Shown piece by piece: positions 20,439 through 60,988 of a stretch of 64,000 nucleotides of DNA. Within the stretch, counting starts at the first letter, position 1, and every line of letters starts with the position of its first letter. A program made the position numbers and the translations under genes. The DNA comes from Aequorivita todarodis (lineage in GTDB: Bacteria > Bacteroidota > Bacteroidia > Flavobacteriales > Flavobacteriaceae), in the NCBI RefSeq assembly GCF_028561335.1, contig NZ_JAQQTG010000020.1, positions 62,001 to 126,000 of the forward strand. The letters are read 5' to 3'. The notes under the pieces are model-generated. The model saw only the letters and a program-made list of their open reading frames with translations. It ran no database searches and had not been told where the DNA came from.

Positions 20439-21722
20439 ATGAAGGTTTCAAAAAGTGTGTTTCTTTTCCTGTTGGTACTTAGTTTTACCAAGGGATTCTC
20501 ACAGTTTACCGTTGACGCCGAATTGCGTCCCCGCTTTGAATATAGACACGGATACAAAACTCTTTTCCCAGATAATTCGGATCCGGCGACCTTTGTATCA
20601 CAGCGCACGCGGCTGAACTTTGGCTATAAGACCGAAAAGCTGTATTTCTATTTAAGCCCCCAGGACGTAAGGGTTTGGGGCGATGTGCCACAGCTGAATG
20701 TTGCAGACGAAAACGGATTTTCACTGCACCAAGCCTGGGCCGATGTCTTGTTAATTTCAGACCTTTCCTTGAAAATTGGGCGCCAGGAAATTGTTTACGA
20801 CGATCAGCGTTTCTTTGGAAATGTGGGCTGGGCGCAACAAGGCAGAAGCCACGATGCGGCAATCGTGAAATTTGAACCCAGTTTTATGAAACTTCATTTT
20901 GGCGCGGCATACAATCAGGACGGGGAAGCCTTGGCTGGAAATATCCTTACCACAAATACCTATAAAAGCCTTCAATATATTTGGCTTCACAAGGATTGGA
21001 AACCACTCTCGGCGAGCTTCCTATTTGTGAACAACGGCTTGCAATATATAGACGAAACGGACGAATCAAAAAACGATACGCGCTACAGCCAAACTGCGGG
21101 AGTTCATTTAAACGCCAATTTGAGTAAATTCAACTTTGCTTCCAATCTTTACTATCAATTCGGGAAGGACGTGGCAAATAATGATTTGAGCGCTTACCTC
21201 CTTTCGCTGGAAGCAACTTATTCCGTATTGGAGAATTTAAAAATTGGTTTAGGTGGCGAGCTGCAGAGCGGAAATGAGTACGGCGCCCCTTCCGATGGAA
21301 AAAACAAGGCCTTCAATCCGCTTTATGGCACCAATCATAAATTCAACGGGTTTATGGATTACTTCTATGTAGGCAACCACATCAACAATGTGGGGTTGCT
21401 GGATTTGTATGGAAACGTGAAATATGCCTTCAATAAAAAATCAAACATCAATTTGGCGCTTCATCAATTTTTCGCTGCCGCAAAAATAAATGACAATACG
21501 TCAAAAGATTTGGGCTTTGAATTAGATTTGGTAACTTCGCATAAATTGAGCGAATACGTGCAGGTTCAAGCAGGGTATTCGCAGTTTTTTGCACAGAAAG
21601 GTATTGAAATCACAAAAAACAATTTTGACGCTAATACAAACAACTGGGGCTGGCTCATGGTGACCATAGACCCTATTTTGTTCACTTGGCAAAAACCAAA
21701 AACTGAAAATAATAAACAATAA
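20439..21722 (+). CDS. Alginate-export-type outer-membrane porin
   Basis: A 427-residue protein with signal peptide (MKVSKSVFLFLLVLSFTKGFSQ) followed by alternating beta-strand pattern through the C-terminus, matching the alginate export/porin family (LRPRFEYRHGY, SQRTRLNFGYKTEKLYFYLSPQDVRVWG, SLKIGRQEIVYDDQRFFG). Despite the family name it is probably a general or anion porin; first gene of the nirK operon, so nitrite or nitrate entry is a reasonable guess. The ATG at 20439 is chosen because it starts the signal peptide; the frame is open further upstream, through the promoter. Confidence 0.82.
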   Translation: MKVSKSVFLFLLVLSFTKGFSQFTVDAELRPRFEYRHGYKTLFPDNSDPATFVSQRTRLNFGYKTEKLYFYLSPQDVRVWGDVPQLNVADENGFSLHQAWADVLLISDLSLKIGRQEIVYDDQRFFGNVGWAQQGRSHDAAIVKFEPSFMKLHFGAAYNQDGEALAGNILTTNTYKSLQYIWLHKDWKPLSASFLFVNNGLQYIDETDESKNDTRYSQTAGVHLNANLSKFNFASNLYYQFGKDVANNDLSAYLLSLEATYSVLENLKIGLGGELQSGNEYGAPSDGKNKAFNPLYGTNHKFNGFMDYFYVGNHINNVGLLDLYGNVKYAFNKKSNINLALHQFFAAAKINDNTSKDLGFELDLVTSHKLSEYVQVQAGYSQFFAQKGIEITKNNFDANTNNWGWLMVTIDPILFTWQKPKTENNKQ

Positions 21723-21749: not shown

Positions 21750-23216
21750 ATGAAATTAGTTATCAACCACAAATTAATTACCAAAATGCTGCTTGGTTTA
21801 GGCACGGTGGCATTTCTTTCGGGCTGCGTAAATGACCAATCCGACAAAAAATACAACGACACCGTTGATATTCCCGTAAACCAAGAAATGATTGCGGAAC
21901 TTACCTCCCCACCCAACGTACCTACTCCCGTAGGAAAACGAATGGCCAAAAAACTAATCGTGGACTTGGAAATCCAAGAACGCGAGGGCGAAATGACCAA
22001 CGGCGTAAAATATGTGTATTGGACCTTTGGCGGAACCGTTCCGGGAAGTTTCATCAGAACCCGTGTGGGCGACGAGGTGGAATTTCACTTAAAAAACCAC
22101 CCGGACAACAAGCTTCCGCACAACATTGACCTTCACGCCGTGAACGGTCCCGGTGGTGGGGCAGAGTCTTCCTTTGTAGCTCCCGGCCACGAAAAAGTAT
22201 TCTCTTTTAAGGTGCTTAACCCAGGACTCTATGTGTACCATTGCGCAACCGCACCAGTAGGTATGCACATTGCCAACGGAATGTACGGACTTATCTTGGT
22301 GGAACCCGAAGGCGGCTTGCCTCCGGTGGACAAAGAATATTACATTATGCAGGGCGATTTCTATACCGAAGGCAAATATGGCGATCGGGGCCTACAGGCA
22401 TTCGATATGCAAAAAGCCATCGATGAAAAACCAGACTATGTTGTTTTCAACGGACACGTAGGTGCCATGACCGGCGACAATGCCATTACCGCAAAAGTGG
22501 GCGAAAAAATCCGTCTTTTTGTTGGGAATGGTGGCCCTAACCTGGTTTCTTCCTTTCACGTAATTGGAGAGATTTTTGACAGAGTGCACGTTGAAGGCGG
22601 CGATATGATCAACGAAAATGTACAAACAACCTTGATTCCTGCCGGGGGTGCCGCAATTGTGGAATTCCGCATAGACGTTCCCGGAACCTTCATACTTGTG
22701 GATCACTCTATTTTCAGGGCCTTCAATAAAGGTGCCTTGGCGATGCTAAAAGTAGAAGGGGAAGAAGACAAACGCATTTATTCCGGTGAAATCCGCGACG
22801 GTATCTATCTTCCAGAAGGTGGAGCCATCCAGTCTATGCCAAACGGAGCAAGAAAAGAAGCAAAAGAAGAAGTGAAGGCATTGAGTATTGAGGAGCGAAT
22901 GAAATTCGGAAAAGATAAATATATGGCTACCTGCGTTGCTTGCCACCAAGCAAATGGACAAGGTATTGAAGGCGCTTTTCCTCCATTGGCAAAATCTGAT
23001 TACCTAAATGCCGATGTGGACAGGGCTATCGATATTGTATTGCACGGTAAATCGGGTGAAATTACCGTTAACGGTAAAAAATACAACAGTGTAATGACTG
23101 CCCAAGCGCTTTCTGATGAAGAAGTAGCCAACGTACTTACATACGTTTACAACAGTTGGGGCAATTCCAAAAAAGAAGTTACCCCAGAAATGGTGCAAGC
23201 TGTTAGAAACAAATAA
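21750..23216 (+). CDS. nirK: Copper nitrite reductase fused to cytochrome c
   Basis: A 488-residue lipoprotein (lipobox SGC, Cys26). Two cupredoxin domains carry type-1 copper ligands H124, C165, H173 and M178 ([18 protein letters not shown]) and type-2 ligands H129, H164 and H319; catalytic D127 and H270 are present. The C165-H173 spacing of 8 is that of class II NirK. A C-terminal class I cytochrome c domain has CVACH (C395, C398, H399) and likely axial M449. Reduces nitrite to NO in the periplasm, the fused heme delivering electrons. Second gene of the porin-nirK-SUMF1-SCO operon. Confidence 0.95.
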
Positions 23217-34290: not shown

Positions 34291-35505
34291 TTAAGCAGAA
34301 AGATATGAACTTTTAATGTTTCTGAAAAATAAAATTCCCACCGCCAGCGGAAAGGCACAGCTTAAAATGGCCAACAGCCAATAATATTCGACGAAAAAAG
34401 GCAGGCCCAGCCAAAGCGCAAAGGCTTTATAGAAAATAAGTAGCTCGGTGCTGATGAAAGCGAAAAAGAAAATCCACAAAAAGTTTTTGGACAGTTTTAT
34501 CAATTTGAAATATTCCAAAAAGCCGAGCATTGCCATTATTACGATGCCGAGGAAAACCATATGCAAATAGCCGATTACAAAATCCTTCAATCGAAAAGCT
34601 AAGTTTGCGATGTAGGGAAAAGCAGAGAAAAGCTGCATCAAAATCTTTAAAGCGAGCAAGGCTCCGGCAAATTTCAAAAGAAAAAAACAGGCTGGGCCAA
34701 ATTCAGTTCTCAAAACCGAAAAATGGTTTTTAAACAATGAATAAAGTTCAAAAAATGCCAAAAGCTGGGCCACGGCGCCGGCCAGTCCCAAAAGGTAAAT
34801 AACCGTGGGCGGCACAAACCAAAGAAAGGAAAGAAAGACCGTAAGTATCACTCCAAAATTCAAAAGCAGAAAAAACGATTTCAATTTTTCGGGGTTGAAG
34901 TGGATTCCCTTTTCCTCAAAAACATAGAACAAAACGCCCAACAAAGCAATTAGGAACCAACCGTTATACTGAAAATGCAGATAAAAATAAATAGAGGATT
35001 TGTACCAAATGGATTCCGGACCCAGAGTGGCCATCACGCCCCCGATTGCCCACGGGCCAATACTGGAAATAACCAGATACCACAGCGCGGTTTTTATGAG
35101 TTTCCAGGAAAATCGCTGTTTAAAATGCTTCGGAATATATTTCATTGCAAACCAGGCAAACCAATAGGAAGCGAACAAAAACAACGTGGAGAAAATAATG
35201 GAATACAACGCATACCCCTGAATGGGAAAAGTTACAAGCATTCCCACAATACAAAGATTTGTAAACAAAAAAATACGTTTGTACAGTTTCGGCTTTTGTG
35301 CTTCGGAAAGGAAAATTTTATAGATTAAAGTGGTCAGCCCTAAATAAATCCAGCCCAGCAAAGCCGTGTGGGAATGTGCGTGAAGGAGAAATTTATAATT
35401 GAAAGGAAGAGATGCAACAACATAGAACCTCAGCAAAACGCCCATTAATGCTACGATCAAAAAATAAGCCAAGGCTATGCCTATATGTTTCTTTAAATCT
35501 ACCAA
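34291..35505 (-). CDS. Polytopic His-rich membrane protein, heme-copper-oxidase-like
   Basis: A 404-residue protein with about 12 membrane helices and no close family that I can name. Intramembrane His positions H42, H44, H46 (LLHAHSHTALLGWIYLG), H177 (YLHFQYNGW) and H315 (IGYLHMVFLG) recall the heme-ligand helices of cbb3/NorB subunit I (compare IAHVHVGALAWNGF), but no HH pair in a helix-VII-like context is visible. It sits 127 bp downstream of the NO-repair gene RIC on the same strand, so a role in NO or heme stress is plausible. NnrS is another His-rich family to compare, but its usual motifs were not seen. Confidence 0.6.
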   Translation of the reverse strand: MVDLKKHIGIALAYFLIVALMGVLLRFYVVASLPFNYKFLLHAHSHTALLGWIYLGLTTLIYKIFLSEAQKPKLYKRIFLFTNLCIVGMLVTFPIQGYALYSIIFSTLFLFASYWFAWFAMKYIPKHFKQRFSWKLIKTALWYLVISSIGPWAIGGVMATLGPESIWYKSSIYFYLHFQYNGWFLIALLGVLFYVFEEKGIHFNPEKLKSFFLLLNFGVILTVFLSFLWFVPPTVIYLLGLAGAVAQLLAFFELYSLFKNHFSVLRTEFGPACFFLLKFAGALLALKILMQLFSAFPYIANLAFRLKDFVIGYLHMVFLGIVIMAMLGFLEYFKLIKLSKNFLWIFFFAFISTELLIFYKAFALWLGLPFFVEYYWLLAILSCAFPLAVGILFFRNIKSSYLSA

Positions 35506-35632: not shown

Positions 35633-36358
35633 TTAGTTTCTTTTAAGTTTCTTTTCCAAATTCAAGGCCTTTGGGAAAAGGATATTATTTTCCAAGTGGA
35701 TGTGCTGGTGCAGGTCCTGCTCAAACTCGTCGAGCTTTGCATAAAATGCGCGATACGTGTTACAGGCGCCCTGTGGTGGAGTAAAGTTGTTGCTCAATTT
35801 TGAAATCTTGCGCAAAATCTCGCCAGCTTCCTCGTGTTCTTCCTCCATCATTTTTATGGGGTTTTCCACAGTGCCAAAATGGATTGCGGGTACTTCGCCG
35901 TTTTCGCGCTCTGCAGTTACCAGTTTTTTGATGAAAGGGAACAGGATCAATTCTTCCTTTCTCTGGTGTGCCGCCATAGCTTGAACCACTTGTGTTACCA
36001 AAGCCTCAATTTCGGCAAGTTCGGTATAATGGTGACCGTGTACGTGGTTCACTCGTTTTGAATATTGCAAAAGCAAGGGACTGCTTTCCTCTACATAGGT
36101 ATGGTGTACGTTTATAATATGGTCGGCCAAAAAGTCCAACTTCCAACTGTTATAATCGTGGGCACGGTCCTGTACTTTGTCGAGGTTTAATAGCTCCTCT
36201 TCCAAAATTGATGGATCTACTTTGGCCTTTTCGCAGGCGCGGGCAATACTGATGCCTCCGCCGCAGCAAAAATCGATGCCATGCTTTTTGAATATATGTG
36301 CGGCCTTTATGTTTTCGGTAACCACATCGGCTACGGTACGTTCTTGGAGTGTTGTCAT
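35633..36358 (-). CDS. Iron-sulfur cluster repair di-iron protein (RIC/ScdA/YtfE)
   Basis: A 241-residue protein: N-terminal DUF542/ScdA_N domain with GIDFCCGGG (C31, C32) and a C-terminal hemerythrin-like four-helix domain with multiple His/Glu ligands (HHTYVEE, HVHGHHYTELAE, HQRKEELILFPF, EEEHEEAGE, HQHIHLENNILFP). RIC proteins repair NO- or peroxide-damaged Fe-S clusters and act on NO in the cytoplasm. The ATG at 36358 removes a non-conserved N-terminal extension. The promoter carries both regulatory motifs seen for denitrification genes. Confidence 0.93.
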   Translation of the reverse strand: MTTLQERTVADVVTENIKAAHIFKKHGIDFCCGGGISIARACEKAKVDPSILEEELLNLDKVQDRAHDYNSWKLDFLADHIINVHHTYVEESSPLLLQYSKRVNHVHGHHYTELAEIEALVTQVVQAMAAHQRKEELILFPFIKKLVTAERENGEVPAIHFGTVENPIKMMEEEHEEAGEILRKISKLSNNFTPPQGACNTYRAFYAKLDEFEQDLHQHIHLENNILFPKALNLEKKLKRN

Positions 36359-36390
36359 AATTTTTAAACTTTTAGTGAATATTATTGGTG

Positions 36391-36457
36391 CAAATTTCAA
36401 CAGAAAAAAAGGAACAAAGTATGACTTAAATCATAAAATGACATTTTTATCAGAAAT
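36391..36457 (-). promoter_or_regulatory. Promoter of RIC with CRP/FNR-type and Rrf2-type sites
   Basis: CRP/FNR-type box TGACTTAAATCA (36422-36433), 23 bp, minus-strand -7-like GAAATTTG (36398 down to 36391). Just upstream is TGAC-N6-ATCAGAAAT (36439-36457), matching 15 of 19 bases of the palindrome half in front of the Rrf2 gene at 40030-40464. Confidence 0.68.
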
Positions 36458-41110: not shown

Positions 41111-42376
41111 TTAATGAAATCGTTGTTTCGCAGCCTTCTCCAAGGCTTCCCGATGGTCGGGATGGGCAATGGAAATAAGCGCTTTGGCACGTTGTTCCAA
41201 TCCCTTTCCGAAAAGATTCACCACTCCGTACTCCGTAACCACATAATGCACGTGCGCCCTAGTGGTTGTAACGCTGGCGCCTTCCTTTAAAAAAGGGGTA
41301 ATTTTGGAAATGCCTTTATTGGTTATCGACGGCATCGCAATTATGGGCTTCCCGCCTTCTGAAAGCGAGGCGCCACGGATAAAATCCATCTGTCCGCCCA
41401 CGCCGGAATATTGGTACATCCCGATGCTATCCGCACAAACCTGGCCGGTCAAATCAATCTCAATGGCGCTGTTTATTGCCGTAACTTTCGGGTTTCGGCG
41501 AATAATGGCAGTATCATTGGTATAACCTGCTTCCTTGAAATGCACAATCGGGTTGTCGTCAATAAAGTCGTATAATTTTTTGGTTCCCATTGCGAAACAG
41601 GTAACTATTTTCCCGGTTTTTATTTCCTTGTCCTCGCCGGTAATTATTCCTTTTTCTACCAATGGAAGAATGCCGTCGCTGAACATTTCAGTGTGGATTC
41701 CCAATCGTTTATGGTTGCCCAGGTTGTGGAGCACCGCATTTGGAATATTGCCGATGCCCATTTGAAGCGTGGCGCCATCTTCCACCAATTCAGCAACATT
41801 TCTTCCTATGGTAGCCTCGATTTCAGAAGTTTCTCCTAAAATTGAAGCGTAAATAGGCGTATCTATTTCGACCCCGAAATCTACATTATTTATATGAATA
41901 ATGCCATCGCCGTGGGTTCTTGGTACGTTCGGATTGATTAGGGCAACTACATGTTTTGCAGTCTGGATGGCGGGCAGGGTAACATCAACCGAAACGCCAA
42001 GCGAACAATACCCGTGCTTATCCGGCGGTGAAACCTGAATGAAAGCCACATCCAAGGGAAGAATATTTCTTCTGAAAAGCCAATGGATTTCACTTAAAAA
42101 GACTGGAATATAATCGCCGTGGATTGTATTGACTCCTTTCCGAACATTATCGCCCACAAAACAACTGGAAAGCTTAAAAGCCTCCGTGTAAGGCGCCTGG
42201 GTGTATTTGGCCTCCCCGTGGGTGTGGATTTGGATTATCTCAACATTTTTCAGCTCGCGATAACGCTCACACAAAGTGTCTATCAACAAATTGGGCGTCA
42301 TTGCCGCGCCCTGAAAAAATACGCGATTATTTGATTTTACTATGGATACGGCCTCTTGGGCGGAAACGATTTGCAT
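41111..42376 (-). CDS. Acetyl-CoA hydrolase/transferase (CoA-transferase) family protein
   Basis: A 421-residue family I-type CoA-transferase of the acetyl-CoA hydrolase/4-hydroxybutyrate CoA-transferase group. The catalytic Glu lies in GIHTEMFSDG, the oxyanion/CoA-binding GxG-type segment in LQMGIGNIPNAVL, and GVGGQMDFIRGA is a conserved family block. Probably exchanges CoA between acetate and another acyl group. An ADP-forming acyl-CoA synthetase is encoded 5 kb away, so the pair may link to acetate metabolism. Single gene with its own terminator. Confidence 0.88.
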   Translation of the reverse strand: MQIVSAQEAVSIVKSNNRVFFQGAAMTPNLLIDTLCERYRELKNVEIIQIHTHGEAKYTQAPYTEAFKLSSCFVGDNVRKGVNTIHGDYIPVFLSEIHWLFRRNILPLDVAFIQVSPPDKHGYCSLGVSVDVTLPAIQTAKHVVALINPNVPRTHGDGIIHINNVDFGVEIDTPIYASILGETSEIEATIGRNVAELVEDGATLQMGIGNIPNAVLHNLGNHKRLGIHTEMFSDGILPLVEKGIITGEDKEIKTGKIVTCFAMGTKKLYDFIDDNPIVHFKEAGYTNDTAIIRRNPKVTAINSAIEIDLTGQVCADSIGMYQYSGVGGQMDFIRGASLSEGGKPIIAMPSITNKGISKITPFLKEGASVTTTRAHVHYVVTEYGVVNLFGKGLEQRAKALISIAHPDHREALEKAAKQRFH

Positions 42377-42402: not shown

Positions 42403-42629
42403 AATCCGGGTCGGATGTTTAGTTAATAATAATGCAAAGGTTGGGAATCTTATCTGCTTCTAAAATGATTTTAGTCAGATTTTTTGGAAATTGAACTTTT
42501 GAGCCACGACGGTTGAAATTACGACTGTTGGAAGCACAACGGTTTGAAACCCGAGTGATAGTAATTATTCTTTTTGTCGTGGGTCGTGTAGCGAAGCGGT
42601 CGGGGGTCAAATCGTCGTCTTGATTCCTT

Positions 42630-45904: not shown

Positions 45905-47230
45905 TCAAGTTTTAATTTTTTGAAGTAATGCTTTGAAAATAGGCGTCGCAACAATCAACAACGAAACAAAAATCCCTATTCCAAAGATGAAAAATGAAAT
46001 ATAGTACGGCACGATTGAATCCTGCATTTCAGCGAACGATCCTTCCTTTGAAACGTACATCCAGTAGCTGCGCTTGGCCCCGGCAATTATCAACGAAACG
46101 AAAAAGATAAACAGCGAAATATTGAATGCCACAAAACCCCTTTTTACCCATTTGGTATCGGTTTGCAGCGTTGGCCGCACGTAGTGGGCAATAAAGAAGA
46201 GCGCCGAAAAAAGGATCGTCGTGTTAATGCCTATCGTGGTTCCCATAGAATGCGCCACCGTAATATGCGTGCCGTGGGTAAAGAAATTGATGGCGGGAAT
46301 GGAGAACAACAGCGCCAAAATAATGTTTATAAAAATCCAAAAATCGGTTGCCAGCAGAAACCGATATGTCATGGGATGGTTTTCCTTTTCCACCTTTAAA
46401 ACGGAGCGTTTCCAATTGTAAATGATCGACGCCAAAACAATCCACTCGGTCATACTTATCGCATAGGCAACGTAGCGGATCCACGGCTGTGTGGGCAGTA
46501 AATAAGTGTGGTGCGCCCAGCCGAACATCAAATTGGTGAGTCCCAAAAAGTAGAAGAAAAACGCCATTTTATTGGTAGCAACGTCGGTATCCTTTTTGAT
46601 TTTTGACATCAAATAGATGGAGATTCCGTAAACAAGCATATTCCACGAACCGGTAAATGAGCCGGTAGATTTCCACTGTACGGCGAAATCCTTTATAAAA
46701 TGCAGCCTAAAAAAATCGAACAGCCAAAAATGCGCCTCCATCAAATGGTAGCACATAAAGGCGATACCCGTGCCCCACATCCAAAAATAGACGGGCCAGC
46801 CCTTCATATTGGTGTAAAGCGTTTTGAAATAATTGATGCCGAAAAGTACCCAGCCCAGTAATATCGGGATCATCAAAATGGGTTTGAAGGCGAAATATTC
46901 GCGCCCCTCGGTATAATCGAAAGCAAAAGAGAAATAAATGGCGACGCCCGTCAACAGGAAAAGTACGAAATGCAGCGATTGCAATTTGCGAGAAAAAAGC
47001 TCAAATTTTTCAACCCAAGCGATAAAGAAATAGATGCTGCCCGTAGCGGCGAGCACAATCCACGAAGTTTCCGAAGTAACGTGAAAGGGCCGCAGTTTGG
47101 AGAAGGGAATCGTTTCCTTTAAAAAATCGGGCAAGAGGTATTGAAACGATGCGGTTAACCCAAAAAGCATCCCCAAAAACAGGGCGGTGAGCGCAAACAA
47201 CAAGAAATATAGCGGCACTTTATTCTTCAT
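45905..47230 (-). CDS. Divergent NorB-like heme-copper-oxidase-superfamily subunit
   Basis: A 441-residue protein with ~12 membrane helices, collinear with NorB (the THG motif is at 318-320 in both proteins). Kept: H50 (LRPFH, low-spin heme), the HH pair 240-241 (GWAHHTYLLP), THG 318-320 and H327. Changed against the canonical NorB of this window: H187 (metal ligand) becomes T189, E191 becomes T193, E195 becomes N197, and H329 (low-spin heme ligand) becomes M329. So the third active-site metal His is missing and one heme may have His/Met ligation. Paired with a NorC-like cytochrome and followed by nadA-nadB. Enzyme activity unknown. Confidence 0.78.
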   Translation of the reverse strand: MKNKVPLYFLLFALTALFLGMLFGLTASFQYLLPDFLKETIPFSKLRPFHVTSETSWIVLAATGSIYFFIAWVEKFELFSRKLQSLHFVLFLLTGVAIYFSFAFDYTEGREYFAFKPILMIPILLGWVLFGINYFKTLYTNMKGWPVYFWMWGTGIAFMCYHLMEAHFWLFDFFRLHFIKDFAVQWKSTGSFTGSWNMLVYGISIYLMSKIKKDTDVATNKMAFFFYFLGLTNLMFGWAHHTYLLPTQPWIRYVAYAISMTEWIVLASIIYNWKRSVLKVEKENHPMTYRFLLATDFWIFINIILALLFSIPAINFFTHGTHITVAHSMGTTIGINTTILFSALFFIAHYVRPTLQTDTKWVKRGFVAFNISLFIFFVSLIIAGAKRSYWMYVSKEGSFAEMQDSIVPYYISFFIFGIGIFVSLLIVATPIFKALLQKIKT

Positions 47231-47651
47231 TTCGGTATTTTATTTTAACCCAGCCCGTGGCCTCGATCTCGGCGTCATAATTGGGGTAAATGCCCGTTTC
47301 ATCCACCTGTTTCAGGTATTCCACGAGGGCATCCTTTTCTTCTTCTGTAAAATGGAATTGCGGCATACTCTTCACTCCGCTGTTCAAAAAAGCCTTTATA
47401 TAGTTTGGGCCCTTGCCTTCGGTAGAATAAATATTGGTCAAATCGGGGCCCAAATACCCGCCCAAACCGTACAATTGGTGACAGGACCAACAACGGTTGC
47501 TTTGGAACAGCTGCTGGCCTTTCACTGCCACTGGAGATAACTTTTCGACGGCCACGTAGCCGTCGGTATTATAGATTACATAGTTATAAAAGCCGAAAAG
47601 GGCGAGCAAAATCGCCATAATGAAAATATAAGGCCTTGGATTGGAGACCAT
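47220..47651 (-). CDS. NorC-like membrane-anchored cytochrome c
   Basis: A 143-residue protein: N-terminal membrane anchor (residues ~6-25), monoheme cytochrome c with CWSCH (C54, C57, H58) followed by QLYGLGGYLGPDLTNI, which parallels NorC (CHTILGEGAYYAPELT), and likely axial M96 (KSMPQFHF). It overlaps the downstream oxidase-like gene by 11 bp. The ATG at 47651 is preferred; a longer frame opens at 47690. Confidence 0.88.
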   Translation of the reverse strand: MVSNPRPYIFIMAILLALFGFYNYVIYNTDGYVAVEKLSPVAVKGQQLFQSNRCWSCHQLYGLGGYLGPDLTNIYSTEGKGPNYIKAFLNSGVKSMPQFHFTEEEKDALVEYLKQVDETGIYPNYDAEIEATGWVKIKYRNEE

Positions 47652-47673: not shown

Positions 47674-47747
47674 TAAAAATACCTTTTCACTGCTGTGCGA
47701 AATATGATATTTATCAGTTTTTAAGACTTAGACATCTTTTATTTTCG
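47674..47747. promoter_or_regulatory. Divergent promoter pair sharing one CRP/FNR-type box
   Basis: Box TGATATTTATCA (47705-47716). Exactly 23 bp to the left, minus-strand TATTTTTA (47681 down to 47674); exactly 23 bp to the right, plus-strand TATTTTCG (47740-47747). Each is one mismatch from TAnnTTTG. The box therefore serves the cytochrome/oxidase-like/nadAB operon and the acyl-CoA synthetase in equal geometry. An imperfect dyad (47721-47740) between box and right -7 element resembles one at the norC promoter. Confidence 0.75.
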
Positions 47748-53372: not shown

Positions 53373-55142
53373 TTAGCTTTGGTGTTTTATTTTATCGTAC
53401 AGTTTTACCAGCGATTGCAGCAATTCCACGGGCGTGGTCAAAATCTGGAAATGGTTCTGCCCAAACATCTGTGGCAAGTAATATTTTGCCTGCGCTTCAA
53501 TAGCCAAGGCATACGAATTGATGTTCCGCTGGTTCAATTCCCGAAGTGCTTGCTTTACATCGTTAATGCCGTATTTGCCCTCGTACTTGTCGTAATCATT
53601 GGGTTTTCCGTCAGAAATCAGGATGACCCATTTGTTTTTGGTATCGCGTTTATCGAGCAAGGCTCCCGAATGCCGCAATGCCGTACCGATGCGCGTATAG
53701 CCACTTGGCTGCAGGGCGCCCACCTTTTTTTTTGCCTTTTGCCACTGTTCGTCAAAATCCTTTAAAGTTAGATAGGTGCTGTGGTTTCGGGTTTTGGAAT
53801 AGAATCCGGCGATGGAAAAATCCACATTAAATTCCTCCAAAATTTCCCCAAAAATGATGGAGACCTGTTTTTCCACATCAATCACCCTGTTGTCGGCAGC
53901 ATAGCCATCGCTGGAAAGGCTACTGTCCAAAAGCATCAAAATGGAAAGGTCTTTTTCCTTTTTGCGTTTTGAGAGATAGATATTTTCGGAAGGCGTATGG
54001 CCCGAATGGACGTCAACGTAAAGGTCCGTAAGCGCGTCGAGATCAAATTCCTCGCCCTGCAATTGCCTGCGCTGCTGCTGGTATTTATTGTTTACCGAAG
54101 TGAGCATCTTCCGCAGGCCCATCAAAGTGGAAGCGTGCTGGCGAAGCGTATTTTTGTAATAATCAAAATCGGTTTCGGTTTGGGTTTGGGGGAAAACCTT
54201 GCAGAAATCCGCTTTGTAAGTGCGTTTGGAATAATCCCACTCGTCATACAAAATGTGATGGCCCGAAGTTTCCAATTCGGCACTCTCCGAAATGGTAGTA
54301 TTTTCAATAAACTCGGCCTGATAGATGGAATGCGTTGGGTCGTCCACCCGCACGGTCTGTTTCATATTCAAGTCCTCCAGCGCATTGGCGTGGTCGTCCA
54401 GTTCGTCATCGCCATCAAAATCGCGCCAACCGCCCTCCCACTCTTCCGCGGTTTCGGCCTTTTCAAAATTGTGGGTAAGCACGTAATCTTCCTGCGCTTT
54501 CTTGTCAACTTCAATGGATTTTATCTCCTCCACCGCATTGGCCTTCAAAATGGTGTTTATCTCTTCCTCAATGGCGATTTTTACTTTTTCCGAAATATTC
54601 TCAAGTACCTTTTTCTTCACAGTTTCCGGGGAATTCTCCATCCATTTCCCATAAATAAACGAATAATCGGGCAGATTTTTTTCCGAAGCATTTTCTTCAA
54701 AAAGCAATTTCAGTTCGGCATAAATGGTTTCCGTTCCCGGGAATTGACTGAAAATCTCCTTCAATACTTTTTCAGAATTTTCCTCGGAAACCTTTCGCGC
54801 TTCTTCCAAAGTGTGCTCCTCGCCCAATTCATAATTTAGCTGAAAACTTTTTTGGATGGAAAGATAAAGCGTCCTAAAAATGTAAAAACCAAGATTTTTT
54901 TCCGAAGTATCAAAACCCGAAAACCGTTCGGGCAAAAAGAAGGCATTGTTCTTATAACCGCCCTCCTGCTCTGCCTCAAAAATTTCGATGGGATGGCCCG
55001 TTACGGCCCGTGCCATCAACGTAAGCCGTGGCTTTATTTCGCAAAGCTTTACGGTGTGCGCAATGGCTTCCCTCGCACTTTTTTTTCGGTGCTTTAGAAA
55101 TTTGGCAACCTTCGCAAAGATAAACTCATCGGGTTCAAACAT
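53373..55142 (-). CDS. norD: NorD: von Willebrand factor A protein for NO reductase activation
   Basis: A 589-residue cytoplasmic protein; the C-terminal ~200 residues are a VWA domain with the metal site DSSLSSDG (about residues 403-410), then LISDGKPNDYDKYEGKYGIND. The long N-terminal region is charged and helical with a Glu/Asp-rich middle. NorD works with the AAA+ protein NorQ to activate NorCB, by analogy with CbbQ/CbbO. 10 bp after norQ. Confidence 0.92.
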   Translation of the reverse strand: MFEPDEFIFAKVAKFLKHRKKSAREAIAHTVKLCEIKPRLTLMARAVTGHPIEIFEAEQEGGYKNNAFFLPERFSGFDTSEKNLGFYIFRTLYLSIQKSFQLNYELGEEHTLEEARKVSEENSEKVLKEIFSQFPGTETIYAELKLLFEENASEKNLPDYSFIYGKWMENSPETVKKKVLENISEKVKIAIEEEINTILKANAVEEIKSIEVDKKAQEDYVLTHNFEKAETAEEWEGGWRDFDGDDELDDHANALEDLNMKQTVRVDDPTHSIYQAEFIENTTISESAELETSGHHILYDEWDYSKRTYKADFCKVFPQTQTETDFDYYKNTLRQHASTLMGLRKMLTSVNNKYQQQRRQLQGEEFDLDALTDLYVDVHSGHTPSENIYLSKRKKEKDLSILMLLDSSLSSDGYAADNRVIDVEKQVSIIFGEILEEFNVDFSIAGFYSKTRNHSTYLTLKDFDEQWQKAKKKVGALQPSGYTRIGTALRHSGALLDKRDTKNKWVILISDGKPNDYDKYEGKYGINDVKQALRELNQRNINSYALAIEAQAKYYLPQMFGQNHFQILTTPVELLQSLVKLYDKIKHQS

Positions 55143-55152
55143 GGCTTTTGGA

Positions 55153-55974
55153 TTAGATCATCAAATCGCAGAGGTCGGTGAGCGCTTGGGTAATTTCCAC
55201 GTCGTCGGTCAACGGTTCCACAACGGCCACTTTTACCGAAAGCCGCTTCGGAAGGCCACTGTTTATAAGCATTGCCGCATCGACCAGCAAACGGGTGGAA
55301 ACGGTTTCGGTAAGCCCCAACTCGGTGAGATTGCGGATTTTATTGGCAATGTTCACCAGTTTTTTTGAAGTGTCTTTGTCCAAGCCAGTTTCAGCTGCAA
55401 CGATTTCGGTTTCGTCTTTCGCGGTCGGATATTGAAACGAAAGCGCCACAAAACGCTGGCGGGTAGATGGTTTCAGCTCTTTAAAACCTTTTTGGTAGCC
55501 GGGATTGAAAGACGCCACGAGCATAAAATCGGGATGTGCCTTTACGGTAATGCCTAGTTTGTCAATATAAAGTTCCTTTCTGTGGTCAGTTAAGGAATGT
55601 ATGGCAACCACCACATCTGGGCGGGCTTCGGCAATTTCATCCAAATAAAGAATGGCGCCCTCTTTTACGGCTGTCGTCAAAGGCCCGTCCACCCAAATGG
55701 TCTCGGTGCCCTTGATAATGTAGCGCCCTATAAGGTCTGTGGAAGAGGTTTCCTCATGGCAGGAAACGGTGATAAGCGGTTGCTCCAACTGATGCGCCAT
55801 ATAATCTACAAACCGCGTTTTGCCAGTGCCCGTTGGCCCTTTCAGCAAAATGGGGAGTTTGTTCTTAAAAGCGTGCCGAAAAACCTCAACCTCGCGGTCT
55901 ATGGGTTTATAAAAGGGTATTTCCGAAGAAAATTTTAGGCTTTCCTTTATGGTGATTGTTTCTGTGATTGACAT
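55153..55974 (-). CDS. norQ: NorQ: MoxR-type AAA+ ATPase
   Basis: A 273-residue AAA+ protein of the CbbQ/NirQ/NorQ family. Walker A is GPTGTGKT (residues 46-53), Walker B ends LYLDEIAEARPDVV, and CbbQ-type block RQRFVALSFQYP is near residue 180. Pairs with NorD in inserting the iron or activating NO reductase. The 168-bp gap to norB holds a CCCGA/TCGGG stem-loop but no box of the type seen elsewhere. Confidence 0.93.
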   Translation of the reverse strand: MSITETITIKESLKFSSEIPFYKPIDREVEVFRHAFKNKLPILLKGPTGTGKTRFVDYMAHQLEQPLITVSCHEETSSTDLIGRYIIKGTETIWVDGPLTTAVKEGAILYLDEIAEARPDVVVAIHSLTDHRKELYIDKLGITVKAHPDFMLVASFNPGYQKGFKELKPSTRQRFVALSFQYPTAKDETEIVAAETGLDKDTSKKLVNIANKIRNLTELGLTETVSTRLLVDAAMLINSGLPKRLSVKVAVVEPLTDDVEITQALTDLCDLMI

Positions 55975-56142: not shown

Positions 56143-57492
56143 TTAGAGATAGCTGCTTTCCACGGTTTCCAGGGCTTCATCCGTGGGGCGACCGTGCTTG
56201 TAAAAATCATAGATATAGGTTAGGACCCCAATGGCGAACAGACTGGCGCAGAGTATAAGCACCACAAAATGAATACTGATTTCTTTTTGGACGGCCATAA
56301 ATTCCATTCCGAATTTTCGTTCCAGATAAACCTGCGCAACGCCAGCGACCCCAAAGGCCATCGTCATCCCAATCATTCCAATATTTGTGGTCCAAAAAGC
56401 CACGCGTCCGCGAACGCCGTCGTAAAATTTACGTCCCGTCATATTGGGCAGGCTGTAGCTTATAATTGCCAAAACAATCATTGCATAGGCGCCCCAAAAT
56501 GCCAAGTGGCCGTGCATTGCGGTAACCAAGGTTCCGTGGGTGTAAAGGTTGGTTTGCGGCAAAGTGTGCGCAAAACCTAAAAGGCCTGCACCTACAAAGG
56601 AAACAATGGCAGCGCCGAGCGTCCAAAACAAAGCGATTTTGTTTGGGTGCTTTTTCTCTCCTTTTCGGTACATATTTACCGCGAAAAGCGCCATAGCAAG
56701 GAACGCCAAAGGCTCCAGGGCAGAGAAAATTCCACCGACGATGAGCCAAATTTTATTCACACCTATATAATAGTAGTGGTGGCCCGTGCCTAACACGCCT
56801 GAAAGAAAAGTAAGGCCCACGATTACATAAAGCCATTTTTCAATAACCTCGCGGTCCACGCCTGTTAACTTTATTAAAAGGAAGGCGAGGATACCGCCCA
56901 TAATGAGTTCCCACACGCCTTCAACCCAAAGGTGCACTACCCACCAGCGGAAAAAGCTGTCGGTTACCTGACTGTCAAACGGCAACATTCCGGGAATGTA
57001 CAGCAGCGCCGCAAACAGCAGGCCCATGGAAAGCACCAGCGCCGTTGTTGTTTTTCGTTTTCCTTTAAAGAGCGTCAAAAGTATGAGTGCCAAAAACAGC
57101 AGTACGTTTAAAACTACCAAATAGTCAAGCTGGCGTGGAATTTCCAAAAATTTACGGCCTTCCCACCAGTTAAAGTGATAGCCCACTATAGCCGCTACGC
57201 CAACCGCTGCAAGCGAAATGAGCTGTACATACGCCAGTTTCACGCTAACGAGTTCGCGTTGGGCCTCCTCGGGGATAATGTAATAGGCAGCGCCCATAAA
57301 CCCAGAGAGCAACCAGACCACAAGCAAATTGGTATGCACGGCGCGCGCGGTGTTAAAAGGAATAAAGTCGTGCAGGCCGTCCATCCCGATACGGGCAAAA
57401 CCCATAACAAAGCCATAGGTTATTTGAAGTACCAGTAAAAGCATGGAAAGTGCAAAAAACCAGTACGCTACTTTTTGAGATTTATATTTCAT
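56143..57492 (-). CDS. norB: Nitric oxide reductase subunit B (cNOR)
   Basis: A 449-residue, 12-helix catalytic subunit. All signature residues are present: H53 (low-spin heme), H187 with E191 and E195 (WWVVHLWVEGVWELIMGG), H238-H239 (GTGHHYY), H327 (high-spin heme) and H329 (low-spin heme; THGTLVTAMHGHL). Reduces NO to N2O in the inner membrane. ATG at 57492; a longer frame adds 25 unrelated residues. Directly follows norC. Confidence 0.96.
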   Translation of the reverse strand: MKYKSQKVAYWFFALSMLLLVLQITYGFVMGFARIGMDGLHDFIPFNTARAVHTNLLVVWLLSGFMGAAYYIIPEEAQRELVSVKLAYVQLISLAAVGVAAIVGYHFNWWEGRKFLEIPRQLDYLVVLNVLLFLALILLTLFKGKRKTTTALVLSMGLLFAALLYIPGMLPFDSQVTDSFFRWWVVHLWVEGVWELIMGGILAFLLIKLTGVDREVIEKWLYVIVGLTFLSGVLGTGHHYYYIGVNKIWLIVGGIFSALEPLAFLAMALFAVNMYRKGEKKHPNKIALFWTLGAAIVSFVGAGLLGFAHTLPQTNLYTHGTLVTAMHGHLAFWGAYAMIVLAIISYSLPNMTGRKFYDGVRGRVAFWTTNIGMIGMTMAFGVAGVAQVYLERKFGMEFMAVQKEISIHFVVLILCASLFAIGVLTYIYDFYKHGRPTDEALETVESSYL

Positions 57493-57514
57493 CGGTATAA
57501 AATTTAATTGGTGG

Positions 57515-57961
57515 TTAGTTGTTGGTGAGTTGCTTGTCTTTTGCCAGCGGCGAAACAATGCGGTCAAAACCGTTTAGGTCTATCTCGCCTATCCAGTTAA
57601 AAAAGGCGATAACGTCCATGGCCTCTTCCTCGGAAAAACCGTAGGCTACCATTTTTCGCTCGTTGGGAGCCCAGGGTACGGGCGTCATAAGAACGGCTTT
57701 TACGTAGCCTTCGCCACGGCGTTCAATAACTTTTGTGAGTTCCGGAGCATAATAGGCGCCCTCGCCCAGAATGGTGTGGCAGCCCATACAGTTGTTTTCT
57801 TCCCAGATTACCTTACCGCGCACCACTTGGGCGGTAATGTTTTCATAATTGGTTTGGTCCTGGCCGTCGCTGAAGGAATAGATGGTAAGGCCAATAAAGA
57901 TCAGAAAGGTTACGAGTGTTCCCCCAAGGAAAAATGCCCGTGCTTGTTGTTTGGATAGCAT
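57515..57961 (-). CDS. norC: Nitric oxide reductase subunit C
   Basis: A 148-residue membrane-anchored cytochrome c with CMGCH (C58, C61, H62) in NNCMGCHTILGEGAYYAPELT and axial M104 in ERKMVAYGFS. The N-terminal anchor spans about residues 9-29. Passes electrons to NorB. ATG at 57961; the frame is open from 58027 but that part is non-conserved and includes the promoter. Confidence 0.95.
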   Translation of the reverse strand: MLSKQQARAFFLGGTLVTFLIFIGLTIYSFSDGQDQTNYENITAQVVRGKVIWEENNCMGCHTILGEGAYYAPELTKVIERRGEGYVKAVLMTPVPWAPNERKMVAYGFSEEEAMDVIAFFNWIGEIDLNGFDRIVSPLAKDKQLTNN

Positions 57962-57983
57962 ATTGGTTGGTTTAAAATTATAT

Positions 57984-58049
57984 TTAAGACTTATATATCT
58001 TAATAGCAAAATAAATAAGAATGACAAAAATGTAATATGACCATTATCA
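57984..58049 (-). promoter_or_regulatory. norC promoter: CRP/FNR-type box, -7 element and start-site dyad
   Basis: Box TGACCATTATCA (58038-58049), 23 bp, then minus-strand TTATTTTG (58014 down to 58007). Across the expected start site lies the dyad TTAAGA (57984-57989) / TCTTAA (57998-58003), placed like a repressor operator. Confidence 0.72.
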
Positions 58050-59113: not shown

Positions 59114-60916
59114 TTACCCAACCTGCAACTGCAATTCCTGCAACTGCAAAATCTCCTTTTTGGCATCGGCTAAATCCCTTTCAAATTGGGCTTTATTGTC
59201 TAAAATATAATTTGCCGTCAAATCATAATAATGCGCAATCCCATCGAGAAGATTTTCACTGAATTTTTCCCAGGTTTTGAAATCGCGGGCAGTTGGCGTT
59301 AAGGTATGCTTCATTTCCTTCTTTAAAAAATCTATATAGAGCCTTAATTCGGCAACAAACATTAAAGGCCTGTTGGGGTATTGCATTATATTTTGGCGGC
59401 CGTAAATATGATCAGTCATCTCGCGCAGACTGGCAACCTTTGAGAAATTGACGATATTCGGTCCCGGGCAAATGGTTACCGCCGTAAGCTTTTTTAGAAA
59501 GGGCACTTCATACCGAATAGCCGCCGCATTGCTCAGGCCGATGCACAGACATTCTTTGCCCAACACCTCTTCGCGCTGCAGCTCCAGTTCTTCCTCGGAA
59601 AGATTTAAGCTTTCCAATTGCTCCAGTTTCATCTTTTGGTATTTGCTCGACGCGGTACATATCGGTTCTTTGGTAAACTCAGTATTGGATACCAATAGCT
59701 TTTCGGTACACGGACTGCCGGGCTTTTCCTTTGCTATCCGGTCCAAACGTTCCTTTTCGGCGGTGGTTCCCTTTAAATAATTGAACTGTACCCCCAACGG
59801 CGACGCTTTGCTCCGAACTACATCCCTGTCTTTCGACTGGCGGAGCAACTCCAACGTATCCTCATCAACCGTAGTAGCTTCCGGGCATAACAGAAAGGGC
59901 GTGCCCCAACCCGTGCCGTCCACTTGGTAGTAATTGCGCAGCAAGTTATCCTCCTCACTGGTGCCAATACCGCCCTGTACCTTAATTTTTATGGGATGCG
60001 GTTCAGAAAAGGTAAGTTTTCCCTTGGCCGTGAGTGCAGGATTGTAAAGCTCAAAAAGGCTATCCTGCAATTCCTGTCTTTTCTCTTTAAATTCCTGGAG
60101 AATCGGCCCCATCAATAGGCCCTGGGTGGCAAAAACGTGGCCACCGCAATTAAGTCCGGATTCAATGCGAAACTCACTGACCCAGATTCCCTTTTTCGCC
60201 AAATATTTCCCCTGTATCAACGCCGAACGGTAATCACTCACCTTAATCACTACTTTTTTGTGAAAGGAGCCCCATTCATAGGCATCAAAGGCCGAAAAAT
60301 TTTCCATATAATTATAAAGTCGCGGGTTCATTCCCGCAGAAAAAATAAGGGACGAATTGGTAAGTTCGCTTTTGGCGTAACCTTTTAGGGCGGTCAGCGC
60401 ATCCGATCCGTTTTCAATTATATCCTTGTTTTTGTCCAGATTTTCCTTGTCCACCTTAGTCATAATATTCACTTCCACCGCTCCTGGCACCACCAGTTTA
60501 AGCAGCAATTTTTCCAATAATCCTTTCTTTTCGGGATTTAGGGTAAAAAGCCATTCGTGATACTTATCCTTTAGCAGGCTTGTATCGGGAAGCATTTCGA
60601 AATATTTTACAAGATCCGATCCCCCTTCAAATGTGGATGCCTTGAGCCGTTCCATTTTTGAAGTGACGATGCGCTGCATCAGGTTCAGGTAATCGGTTAT
60701 ACGCCTGGCTCTGTAATCCTCCTCTTTTACGGTAATGGGAACGTATGGTTCGTTATTTTGGCCGTAGTAATATTTCCGCATTACTTCCAAAATGTTATCC
60801 TCAATAACCGAAATGGCCGAGTTGATGCCAAAGCAGGCAACTTTTATTGGGGAATCAATGGTGTAGGCAATGCCCATGACGGGAATGTGAAAGGTGTGCG
60901 GACTGGTAATTTGCAT
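59114..60916 (-). CDS. Nitronate-monooxygenase-like FMN barrel protein with Cys-rich extension
   Basis: A 600-residue protein starting at M (60916). The first ~370 residues look like a 2-nitropropane dioxygenase/nitronate monooxygenase TIM barrel: KKVVIKVSDYRSALIQGKYL, SGLNCGGHVFATQG (near 253-266) and KVQGGIGTSEED...GTGWGTPFLLCPEATTV (near 312-350), the last two corresponding to FMN phosphate-binding loops. A ~230-residue C-terminal extension has cysteines C403, C420, C456, C458 and C483. Two ends of the insert are helical. It lies downstream of nosDFY and has its own CRP/FNR-type box. I do not know its substrate. Confidence 0.62.
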   Translation of the reverse strand: MQITSPHTFHIPVMGIAYTIDSPIKVACFGINSAISVIEDNILEVMRKYYYGQNNEPYVPITVKEEDYRARRITDYLNLMQRIVTSKMERLKASTFEGGSDLVKYFEMLPDTSLLKDKYHEWLFTLNPEKKGLLEKLLLKLVVPGAVEVNIMTKVDKENLDKNKDIIENGSDALTALKGYAKSELTNSSLIFSAGMNPRLYNYMENFSAFDAYEWGSFHKKVVIKVSDYRSALIQGKYLAKKGIWVSEFRIESGLNCGGHVFATQGLLMGPILQEFKEKRQELQDSLFELYNPALTAKGKLTFSEPHPIKIKVQGGIGTSEEDNLLRNYYQVDGTGWGTPFLLCPEATTVDEDTLELLRQSKDRDVVRSKASPLGVQFNYLKGTTAEKERLDRIAKEKPGSPCTEKLLVSNTEFTKEPICTASSKYQKMKLEQLESLNLSEEELELQREEVLGKECLCIGLSNAAAIRYEVPFLKKLTAVTICPGPNIVNFSKVASLREMTDHIYGRQNIMQYPNRPLMFVAELRLYIDFLKKEMKHTLTPTARDFKTWEKFSENLLDGIAHYYDLTANYILDNKAQFERDLADAKKEILQLQELQLQVG

Positions 60917-60945
60917 TTGAGAATGAATTTGGATTGAAAATTTGG

Positions 60946-60988
60946 TAAAGATGATTAATCCAAAATTGCCATAGTATGACAAAAATCA
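60946..60988 (-). promoter_or_regulatory. CRP/FNR-type box upstream of the 600-residue gene
   Basis: Box TGACAAAAATCA (60977-60988), 23 bp, then minus-strand CATCTTTA (60953 down to 60946), two mismatches from TAnnTTTG: the weakest of the set in its -7 part. Confidence 0.6.

Follow-up and report, generated by a model that had tools for sequence, protein, structure and literature searches.

An operon of two genes was identified on the reverse strand of the window (the whole stretch of 64,000 nucleotides analyzed in this study), running from 47651 to 45905 and consisting of a cytochrome c gene followed by a NorB-like gene, with an overlap of 11 bases between the two. The 441-residue reading frame and the cytochrome c gene upstream were both found where the first-pass annotation had placed them. 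The start of the cytochrome c gene is better assigned to the ATG at 47651, which is preceded at 59 bp by a palindromic box, than to the less likely GTG at 47690. The operon includes the following features:

45905..47230, reverse strand: NorB-like subunit of predicted COX1 fold, 441 amino acids (open reading frame and homology)
47220..47651, reverse strand: NorC-like, membrane-anchored monoheme cytochrome c, 143 amino acids from ATG 47651 (open reading frame, homology to NorC, and box position)
47705..47716, no strand: Fnr/Crp-type palindrome TGATATTTATCA before the two-gene operon, 59 bp before ATG 47651 (box search)

The window also contains the genes of a canonical cNOR and a gene for a repair protein:

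56143..57567, reverse strand: canonical cNOR NorB, likely ATG 57492 (motifs HLWVEGVWE, GTGHH, and MHGH in the sequence)
57515..58027, reverse strand: canonical NorC, probable start ATG 57961; Fnr-like box at 58038 (family search and box search)
53373-55142, reverse strand: NorD (named from sequence and gene order)
55153-55974, reverse strand: NorQ (named from sequence and gene order)
35633..36400, reverse strand: di-iron repair protein of the RIC/ScdA type, probable start ATG 36358; Fnr-like box at 36422 (homology)

NorD and NorQ (53373..55974, reverse strand) are presumably the chaperones for FeB of the cNOR, and the homologue of the RIC protein in locus L188 matched both the ScdA_N and Hemerythrin domains. 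In addition, nirK, a cbb3 oxidase, and nosD/F/Y-like genes were recognized in the window from sequence only, and nosZ was located 1.5 kb past the window end. One open reading frame (21750-23216, forward strand) resembled a copper nitrite reductase with a C-terminal CxxCH cytochrome c domain, as read from its translation. The identification of the NorB-like protein as NosB was rejected, since NosB is described in PMC9697520 as a smaller membrane protein with an LNHYIGM motif; a 203-residue reading frame with this motif was found beside NosZ (L215:688-1299).

The NorB-like protein was assigned to a single Pfam family, COX1, with a score of 100.8 bits (cut-off 34.8, E 1e-28). No NCBIfam model scored above its cut-off for this protein, the best being ccoN with 35.9 bits against a cut-off of 583. 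The protein matched the solved cNOR subunit 4xyd_A with an E of 7.8e-10, or 9.3e-26 when a profile of 87 family members was used, and the same profile matched cbb3 subunit I with an E of 5.7e-18. These matches point to one membrane subunit with a NorB/cbb3-type (COX1/NOR) fold, and a predicted structural model showed the same fold. The identity to NorB was about 25%, and the loci were divided in score, with family members at 369 to 800 bits (fragments aside) and canonical NorB at 80 to 91 bits.

Heme-copper oxidases and NO reductases share a signature of six His (PMC3413370), and four of the six (H50, H240, H241, and H327) are kept in the NorB-like protein. The codons at the ligand positions are located as follows, all on the reverse strand:

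47081..47083, reverse strand: H50, low-spin heme ligand by homology (His in 101 of 101 readable rows)
46664..46666, reverse strand: T189, at the place of the helix VI metal His (codon read and alignment)
46652..46654, reverse strand: T193, at the place of the first NorB active-site Glu (alignment of 102 rows)
46640..46642, reverse strand: N197, aligned with the second active-site Glu of NorB (Asn in all 102 rows)
46508..46513, reverse strand: H240-H241, the pair of metal-site His that is kept (both in all 102 rows)
46250..46252, reverse strand: H327, proximal heme b3 ligand by homology (alignments)
46244..46246, reverse strand: M329, at the place of the second low-spin heme His (codon read and alignments)

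In the H-x-H motif of helix X, the first His is the ligand of the high-spin heme and the second that of the low-spin heme. In a MAFFT alignment, T189, T193, and N197 faced the His, Glu, and Glu of NorB, and M329 faced the second His of the H-x-H. All four of the residues named in the first-pass annotation are present in the translation. A profile-profile alignment agreed with MAFFT in pairing HH with HH and M329 with the second His, but the start of helix VI was shifted by one residue, because the NorB-like family is one residue shorter there, and the invariant G190 instead of T189 came to lie opposite the NorB His. By alignment, the helix VI metal His is absent in either register.

Conservation was assessed in an alignment of 102 rows, comprising the query and 101 Bacteroidota loci. 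Two loci were dropped from the count, L013, a draft-genome locus whose reading frame is interrupted inside the gene, and L177, a fragment below the 360-bit limit, and the partial genes L172 and L176 were kept. Position 189 was occupied by Tyr in 47 rows, Asn in 31, Thr in 12, Leu in four, Ala and Gly in three each, and Ser and Met in one each, and by His in none; position 193 was Val in 85 rows, Thr in 16, and Ile in one. Residues K187, Q185, W186, G190, G194, N197, H240, and H241 were invariant in all 102 rows, and H50, H327, and M329 were each present in all 101 rows with a letter at the position. Of the two residues whose conservation had been in question, M329 proved to be fixed, whereas T189 is not conserved as a residue, yet is never replaced by His. 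A fixed metal ligand at position 189 is hard to reconcile with the eight residue types that occur there. The substitutions also withstood the two objections raised against them at the outset, as none of the 102 homologous rows keeps both His and no other conserved His is aligned with the vacant positions. The further conserved His are H319, which NorB also has, and H322, found in 97 of 100 readable family rows and replaced by Leu in all nine rows of NorB; both lie outside helix VI, in or just before helix X and ahead of the heme b3 ligand H327.

The family thus resembles cNOR in its predicted NorB fold and in having a NorC-type monoheme cytochrome c as a partner, and it departs from cNOR at the metal and heme sites. 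Of the three FeB His of cNOR, located in helix VI and in the HH pair, the pair is present in 102 of 102 rows and the helix VI His in none. The low-spin heme b of cNOR is bis-His ligated, in contrast to the family, where Met329 (101 of 101 readable rows) would be a ligand. The two helix VI Glu of cNOR are replaced by Val, Thr, or Ile at position 193 and by Asn at position 197 (102 of 102 rows). A separate difference was observed in the G-R-E-Y motif, whose Glu has a role at the calcium site. This residue (E111) is Glu in 101 of 101 family rows and Lys in nine of nine Bacteroidota NorB rows, and the Lys suggests a lost calcium site in the cNORs of Bacteroidota.

The dN/dS of the NorB-like gene was 0.036-0.063 in five pairs, with two further pairs saturated, which indicates strong purifying selection. 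The ligand changes predicted for the NorB-like protein are a conserved redesign, not decay. While the ligand losses, taken alone, would fit a degenerate NorB paralogue or a sequence artefact, the pattern is shared by 102 aligned sequences, and the dN/dS together with an identity to NorB of only about 25% rules out a pseudogene or a recent NorB duplicate; hence practically no credence is given to this explanation.

A NorC-like gene was found directly upstream of the NorB-like gene in 89 of the 102 loci and anywhere in the neighborhood in 94. Among the 89 upstream cytochromes, a CxxCH (as called) was present in 87, and a G-x-(G/A)-(Y/F/H)-type motif followed it in 82. The partner belongs to the Pfam family Cytochrom_C and is 28% identical to the NorC encoded in the window (pairwise E 3e-14). 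The consistent linkage of this cytochrome c agrees with the earlier proposal that the electron supply is retained.

A phylogeny was constructed from 20 of the 102 family rows together with cNOR, qNOR, and cbb3-type sequences. The tree was unrooted, contained no A-type outgroup, newer NOR classes, or NOD, and left out the 73-residue fragment qNOR_L197. The NorB-like family formed its own clade (support 99/99), as did the cbb3-type rows (100/100), and cNOR and qNOR grouped together (100/99) with the NorB-like family outside. A grouping of the family with cNOR alone was rejected in the AU test (p 0.011), subject to the long branches involved. The suggestion of a new class within the heme-copper superfamily is supported to the extent that an unrooted tree with long branches separates the clade. 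These sequence relationships support the NorB-like family as a lineage of its own beside cNOR/qNOR and cbb3, and as a variant of the heme-copper superfamily that is not cNOR. It is probably a separate, previously uncharacterized class of the respiratory oxidase superfamily. A 471-residue stand-alone CcoN-like protein, found in loci L056, L058, and L064 (one genus code), was placed beside the cbb3 rows.

No description of this ligand set was found in the literature searched, the main NOR survey (10.1073/pnas.2316422121) being outside that search. In a denitrification gene survey from 2025, the Nor set was built from the PNAS NOR survey and candidates without conserved ligand-binding domains were excluded (PMC12569097); the NorB-like family was therefore probably left out of it. 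A search of plasmids returned 214 records, all below 60% identity, of which the best 20 of 214 ranged from 21.7 to 24.6%. One of the matches, on an Azospirillum plasmid and annotated as cbb3 subunit I (L214:2414-3766), was rejected as a family member since its motifs are those of canonical cNOR; it lies near DUF2249 and hemerythrin genes.

Other members of the superfamily also differ from the family. The qNOR has a fused N-terminal cytochrome-like domain, in contrast to the 441-residue family protein with its separate cytochrome c gene. The cbb3 subunit CcoN has the third CuB His and the H-x-H, whereas in the family the third CuB His is missing, as is the second His of the H-x-H; the family also has a NorC-like monoheme partner and forms a separate clade. 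The eNOR, sNOR, gNOR, bNOR, and nNOR, compared here by description only, are NORs of the same superfamily and are related to B-type oxidases in the account given by PMC11388526. A cupredoxin second subunit is predicted for sNOR, gNOR, and eNOR in PMC8756737, unlike the cytochrome c partner of the family.

A parallel at the metal site is offered by the putative NO dismutase, a qNOR-derived enzyme that was likewise compared by description only. As described in PMC3413370, its site resembles that of NOR, except that Asn stands in for one His of unstated position; the other His are kept, in a fused 14-helix qNOR architecture. The family has Asn at position 189 in 31 of 102 rows; it differs from the dismutase in having also lost the low-spin heme His and in keeping a cytochrome c partner. 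By analogy, the family could be a functional NO reductase with an altered binuclear center, in which H240 and H241, together with one polar side chain (N197, Q185, or Tyr/Asn 189), would hold a metal, as the invariance of the HH pair and N197 and the Asn189 rows may suggest. However, position 189 varies among eight residue types including Leu, Ala, and Gly, all 102 rows have Gly at position 190, its counterpart in the alternative register, both Glu are lost, and the NorD-docking motif is absent. This reading is considered rather unlikely.

The docking motif presumably corresponds to a D-R-E sequence that was present in nine of nine NorB rows and in none of the 102 family rows. In Paracoccus NorB, D220 and E222 are needed for FeB insertion by NorQD (PMC9976466). 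From its place and the D-x-E spacing, we infer that D-R-E is the D220/E222 docking pair, with an inexact fit to the His numbers of that paper. Its absence fits a site that is not loaded by NorQD. It does not prove an empty FeB site, because qNOR has none of these docking acids and does not depend on NorQD for its FeB (PMC9976466). The FeB-depleted cNOR variants D220A and E222A are nearly inactive according to the same source (PMC9976466). The ligand losses argue against NOR-type catalysis, both because FeB-depleted cNOR is nearly inactive and because of the lost carboxylates. The Glu pair of the active site is needed in cNOR.

The regulation of the operon was examined through its palindromic box. 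The pattern TGAYNNNNRTCA, which presumably resembles an Fnr site, was found upstream in 23 of 89 loci versus 2.0 in shuffles; this count is not independent of the discovery of the pattern, since it was read off the same 89 operon upstream stretches. The occurrences were split between all 12 Aequorivita-type operons and 11 of 77 others (1.8 in shuffles), and outside Aequorivita 13 box sites were observed versus 4.1 expected from local density (p 4e-4). Hence, the box is firm in Aequorivita and patchy beyond it, and the regulon argument is weaker outside this genus, where the box occurs in only 11 of 77 operons. The link of the family to NosZ and nor genes is independent of the box. Among six patterns of other boxes searched upstream of the operons, five were found in none of the 89 and TTGN8CAA in 10 (9.3 in shuffles).

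Within the window, nine box sites were identified, of which eight lie at most 200 bp before an open reading frame. Specifically, they precede hemN, a gene at 20439, a metal P-type ATPase, RIC, the gene at 41111-42376, the NorB-like operon, norC, and a 622-residue gene, and the ninth is located 295 bp before ccoN. With the site of the operon itself excluded, seven of eight sites remain within 200 bp before a reading frame (p 3.3e-5), a result independent of the box discovery. Two boxes also precede the nos operon cytochrome beside the window (L215 4721 and 4831). In this genome, norC, RIC, the nos operon, and the NorB-like operon thus have an Fnr-type box in common. The gene at 41111-42376 (reverse strand) was judged by eye to be acetyl-CoA hydrolase-like, and its Fnr-like box at 42466 hints at acetate metabolism within the regulon.

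The boxes before hemN and 295 bp before ccoN would also suit a reductase of another substrate, O2 or peroxide, with heme b3 and a distal His pair, as would the cytochrome c peroxidase-like genes (by eye) that neighbor 13 of 90 non-Aequorivita loci. Such an enzyme is improbable: all nine cbb3-type rows in the comparison have a third CuB His that the family lacks, and the link to NosZ described below would be left unexplained.

A scan of one genome collection returned 12 loci, 11 from Aequorivita and one from a Flavobacteriaceae bacterium. The family was found in 15 of 299 Flavobacteriaceae genomes (own genome included) with at least 42% identity, in eight of 395 genomes of a phylum sample, where two matches (G577 and G481, partial) lay outside the class, and in 77 of 395 genomes of a class sample (profile search). 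In the class sample, 64 genomes had both the family and clade II NosZ, 13 the family only, 66 NosZ only, and 252 neither. Clade II NosZ was therefore present in 64 of 77 family genomes versus 66 of 318 others (OR 18.8, Fisher p 1.8e-24, kinship ignored). In 16 of the 64 genomes with both, the two were on the same contig, and in 15 they were within 20 kb, across ten family codes.

Known NORs were infrequent among the family genomes, with cNorB in five of 77 and qNOR-length reading frames in seven of 77; three other matches of this search were the family proteins themselves. Among the NosZ genomes without the family, cNorB was found in 10 of 66 (one partial) and a qNOR-length frame in one of 66. 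Neither a replacement of known NOR by the family among NosZ genomes nor a joint occurrence of the two was supported, as a known NOR occurred in 11 of 64 genomes with the family and 11 of 66 without it (p 1.0). A match to the NirK of the window was present in 16 of 77 family genomes (NirS was outside this search), so most family genomes need not make NO themselves. In Flavobacteriaceae, cNorB was found in 11 of 15 family genomes versus 28 of 284 others (p 4.4e-8), in a tally made by hand with reading frames above 700 residues dropped and one partial counted. The associations with NosZ and cNorB indicate that the family belongs with N-oxide respiration generally and fix no single step.

Genes in the neighborhoods of the family gene were labeled partly by eye, and the labels of Rrf2, Crp, and RIC were confirmed by Pfam for one member each. 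Within about 5.5 kb, a Rrf2 or Crp/Fnr regulator, RIC, a nor/nos gene, or a 404-residue membrane protein was found in 61 of 90 non-Aequorivita loci, a count taken without a background set. The 404-residue protein, encoded in the window at 34291-35505 (reverse strand), has an HAHSH motif, and 16 of 90 non-Aequorivita loci carry a relative close to the family gene. It gave no Pfam match and only a chance-level NCBIfam match (E 0.35), and may be another heme- or NO-related membrane protein. A 622-residue protein (59114-60982, reverse strand, Fnr-like box at 60977) has relatives near the family gene in 14 loci (neighbor cluster 13), and gave no Pfam or NCBIfam match at E 0.01. In the neighborhoods L099-L189, nadA/nadB, a tryptophanase-like enzyme, and a proline-dehydrogenase-like enzyme recurred with no obvious link (all names by eye). 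The last of these was present in 25 loci and was always encoded downstream on the same strand.

The Crp/Fnr or Rrf2 genes, found near 38 of 90 non-Aequorivita loci, might be taken to indicate a heme-based NO/O2 sensor or a non-catalytic NO binder. This is highly improbable for a membrane subunit with a cytochrome c donor, in which Pfam and NCBIfam found no signaling domain.

The association and linkage with clade II nosZ, together with the even occurrence of known NOR among NosZ genomes, could instead reflect an electron conduit, in which the catalytic site has been retired and heme b3 (perhaps capped by H240/H241), a His/Met heme b, and heme c would carry electrons between the quinone pool and those cytochromes of the periplasm that supply NosZ. 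The loss of one metal His and both catalytic Glu alongside invariant electron-transfer positions would be in keeping with this, as would the presence, next to 13 of 90 non-Aequorivita loci, of a cytochrome c gene resembling (by eye) the one that opens the nos operon. However, the family is absent from 66 of 130 NosZ genomes and hence is not needed for N2O reduction, nosZ itself lies within about 5.5 kb in only two of 90 non-Aequorivita loci, and the invariance of H240-H241, K187, Q185, and N197 would be needless in a retired pocket. A conduit is unlikely on balance, though it is the main rival reading.

The same invariant residues (K187, Q185, N197, H240, and H241) suggest that the pocket is still in use. 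Our preferred reading, held tentatively and a little short of even confidence, is a two-subunit heme protein that receives its electrons from cytochrome c and belongs to the anaerobic N-oxide regulon in Bacteroidota, with a metal-poor b3 pocket and a putative role as an NO scavenger. In this scheme, heme b would be ligated by H50 and M329, with a potential above that of a bis-His heme, and heme b3 by H327. The FeB site would be empty, or would hold a weakly bound metal on H240-H241 with water or polar side chains (N197, Q185, and Tyr, Asn, or Thr at 189). Electrons would pass from the periplasmic pool to heme c, heme b, and heme b3, where NO may be bound and, at a low rate or at very low NO levels, reduced in the metal-poor distal pocket, so that NO would be scavenged in cells respiring N2O. 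Stated more broadly, the complex may be one without a non-heme metal and with a His/Met low-spin heme, widespread in N2O-respiring Bacteroidota and acting either as a heme-only NO consumer or as an electron conduit, a proposal that is likewise tentative and somewhat more doubtful than assured.

In one large survey, 53% of the genomes that had nosZ and lacked nir belonged to Bacteroidota (PMC12569097), and the NorB-like family is carried by many N2O-respiring members of this phylum (64 of 130 clade II NosZ genomes in the class sample). If the protein consumes NO, it would change the view that many such bacteria have no NO step, and if it is an electron conduit, it would provide a new route into N2O respiration. 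A conserved branch that has given up two of the six His while keeping its electron donor is a test of which elements of the binuclear center matter, and for what: a heme-only NO enzyme would break the rule that the superfamily needs a binuclear center, and otherwise the family would represent an oxidase turned conduit.
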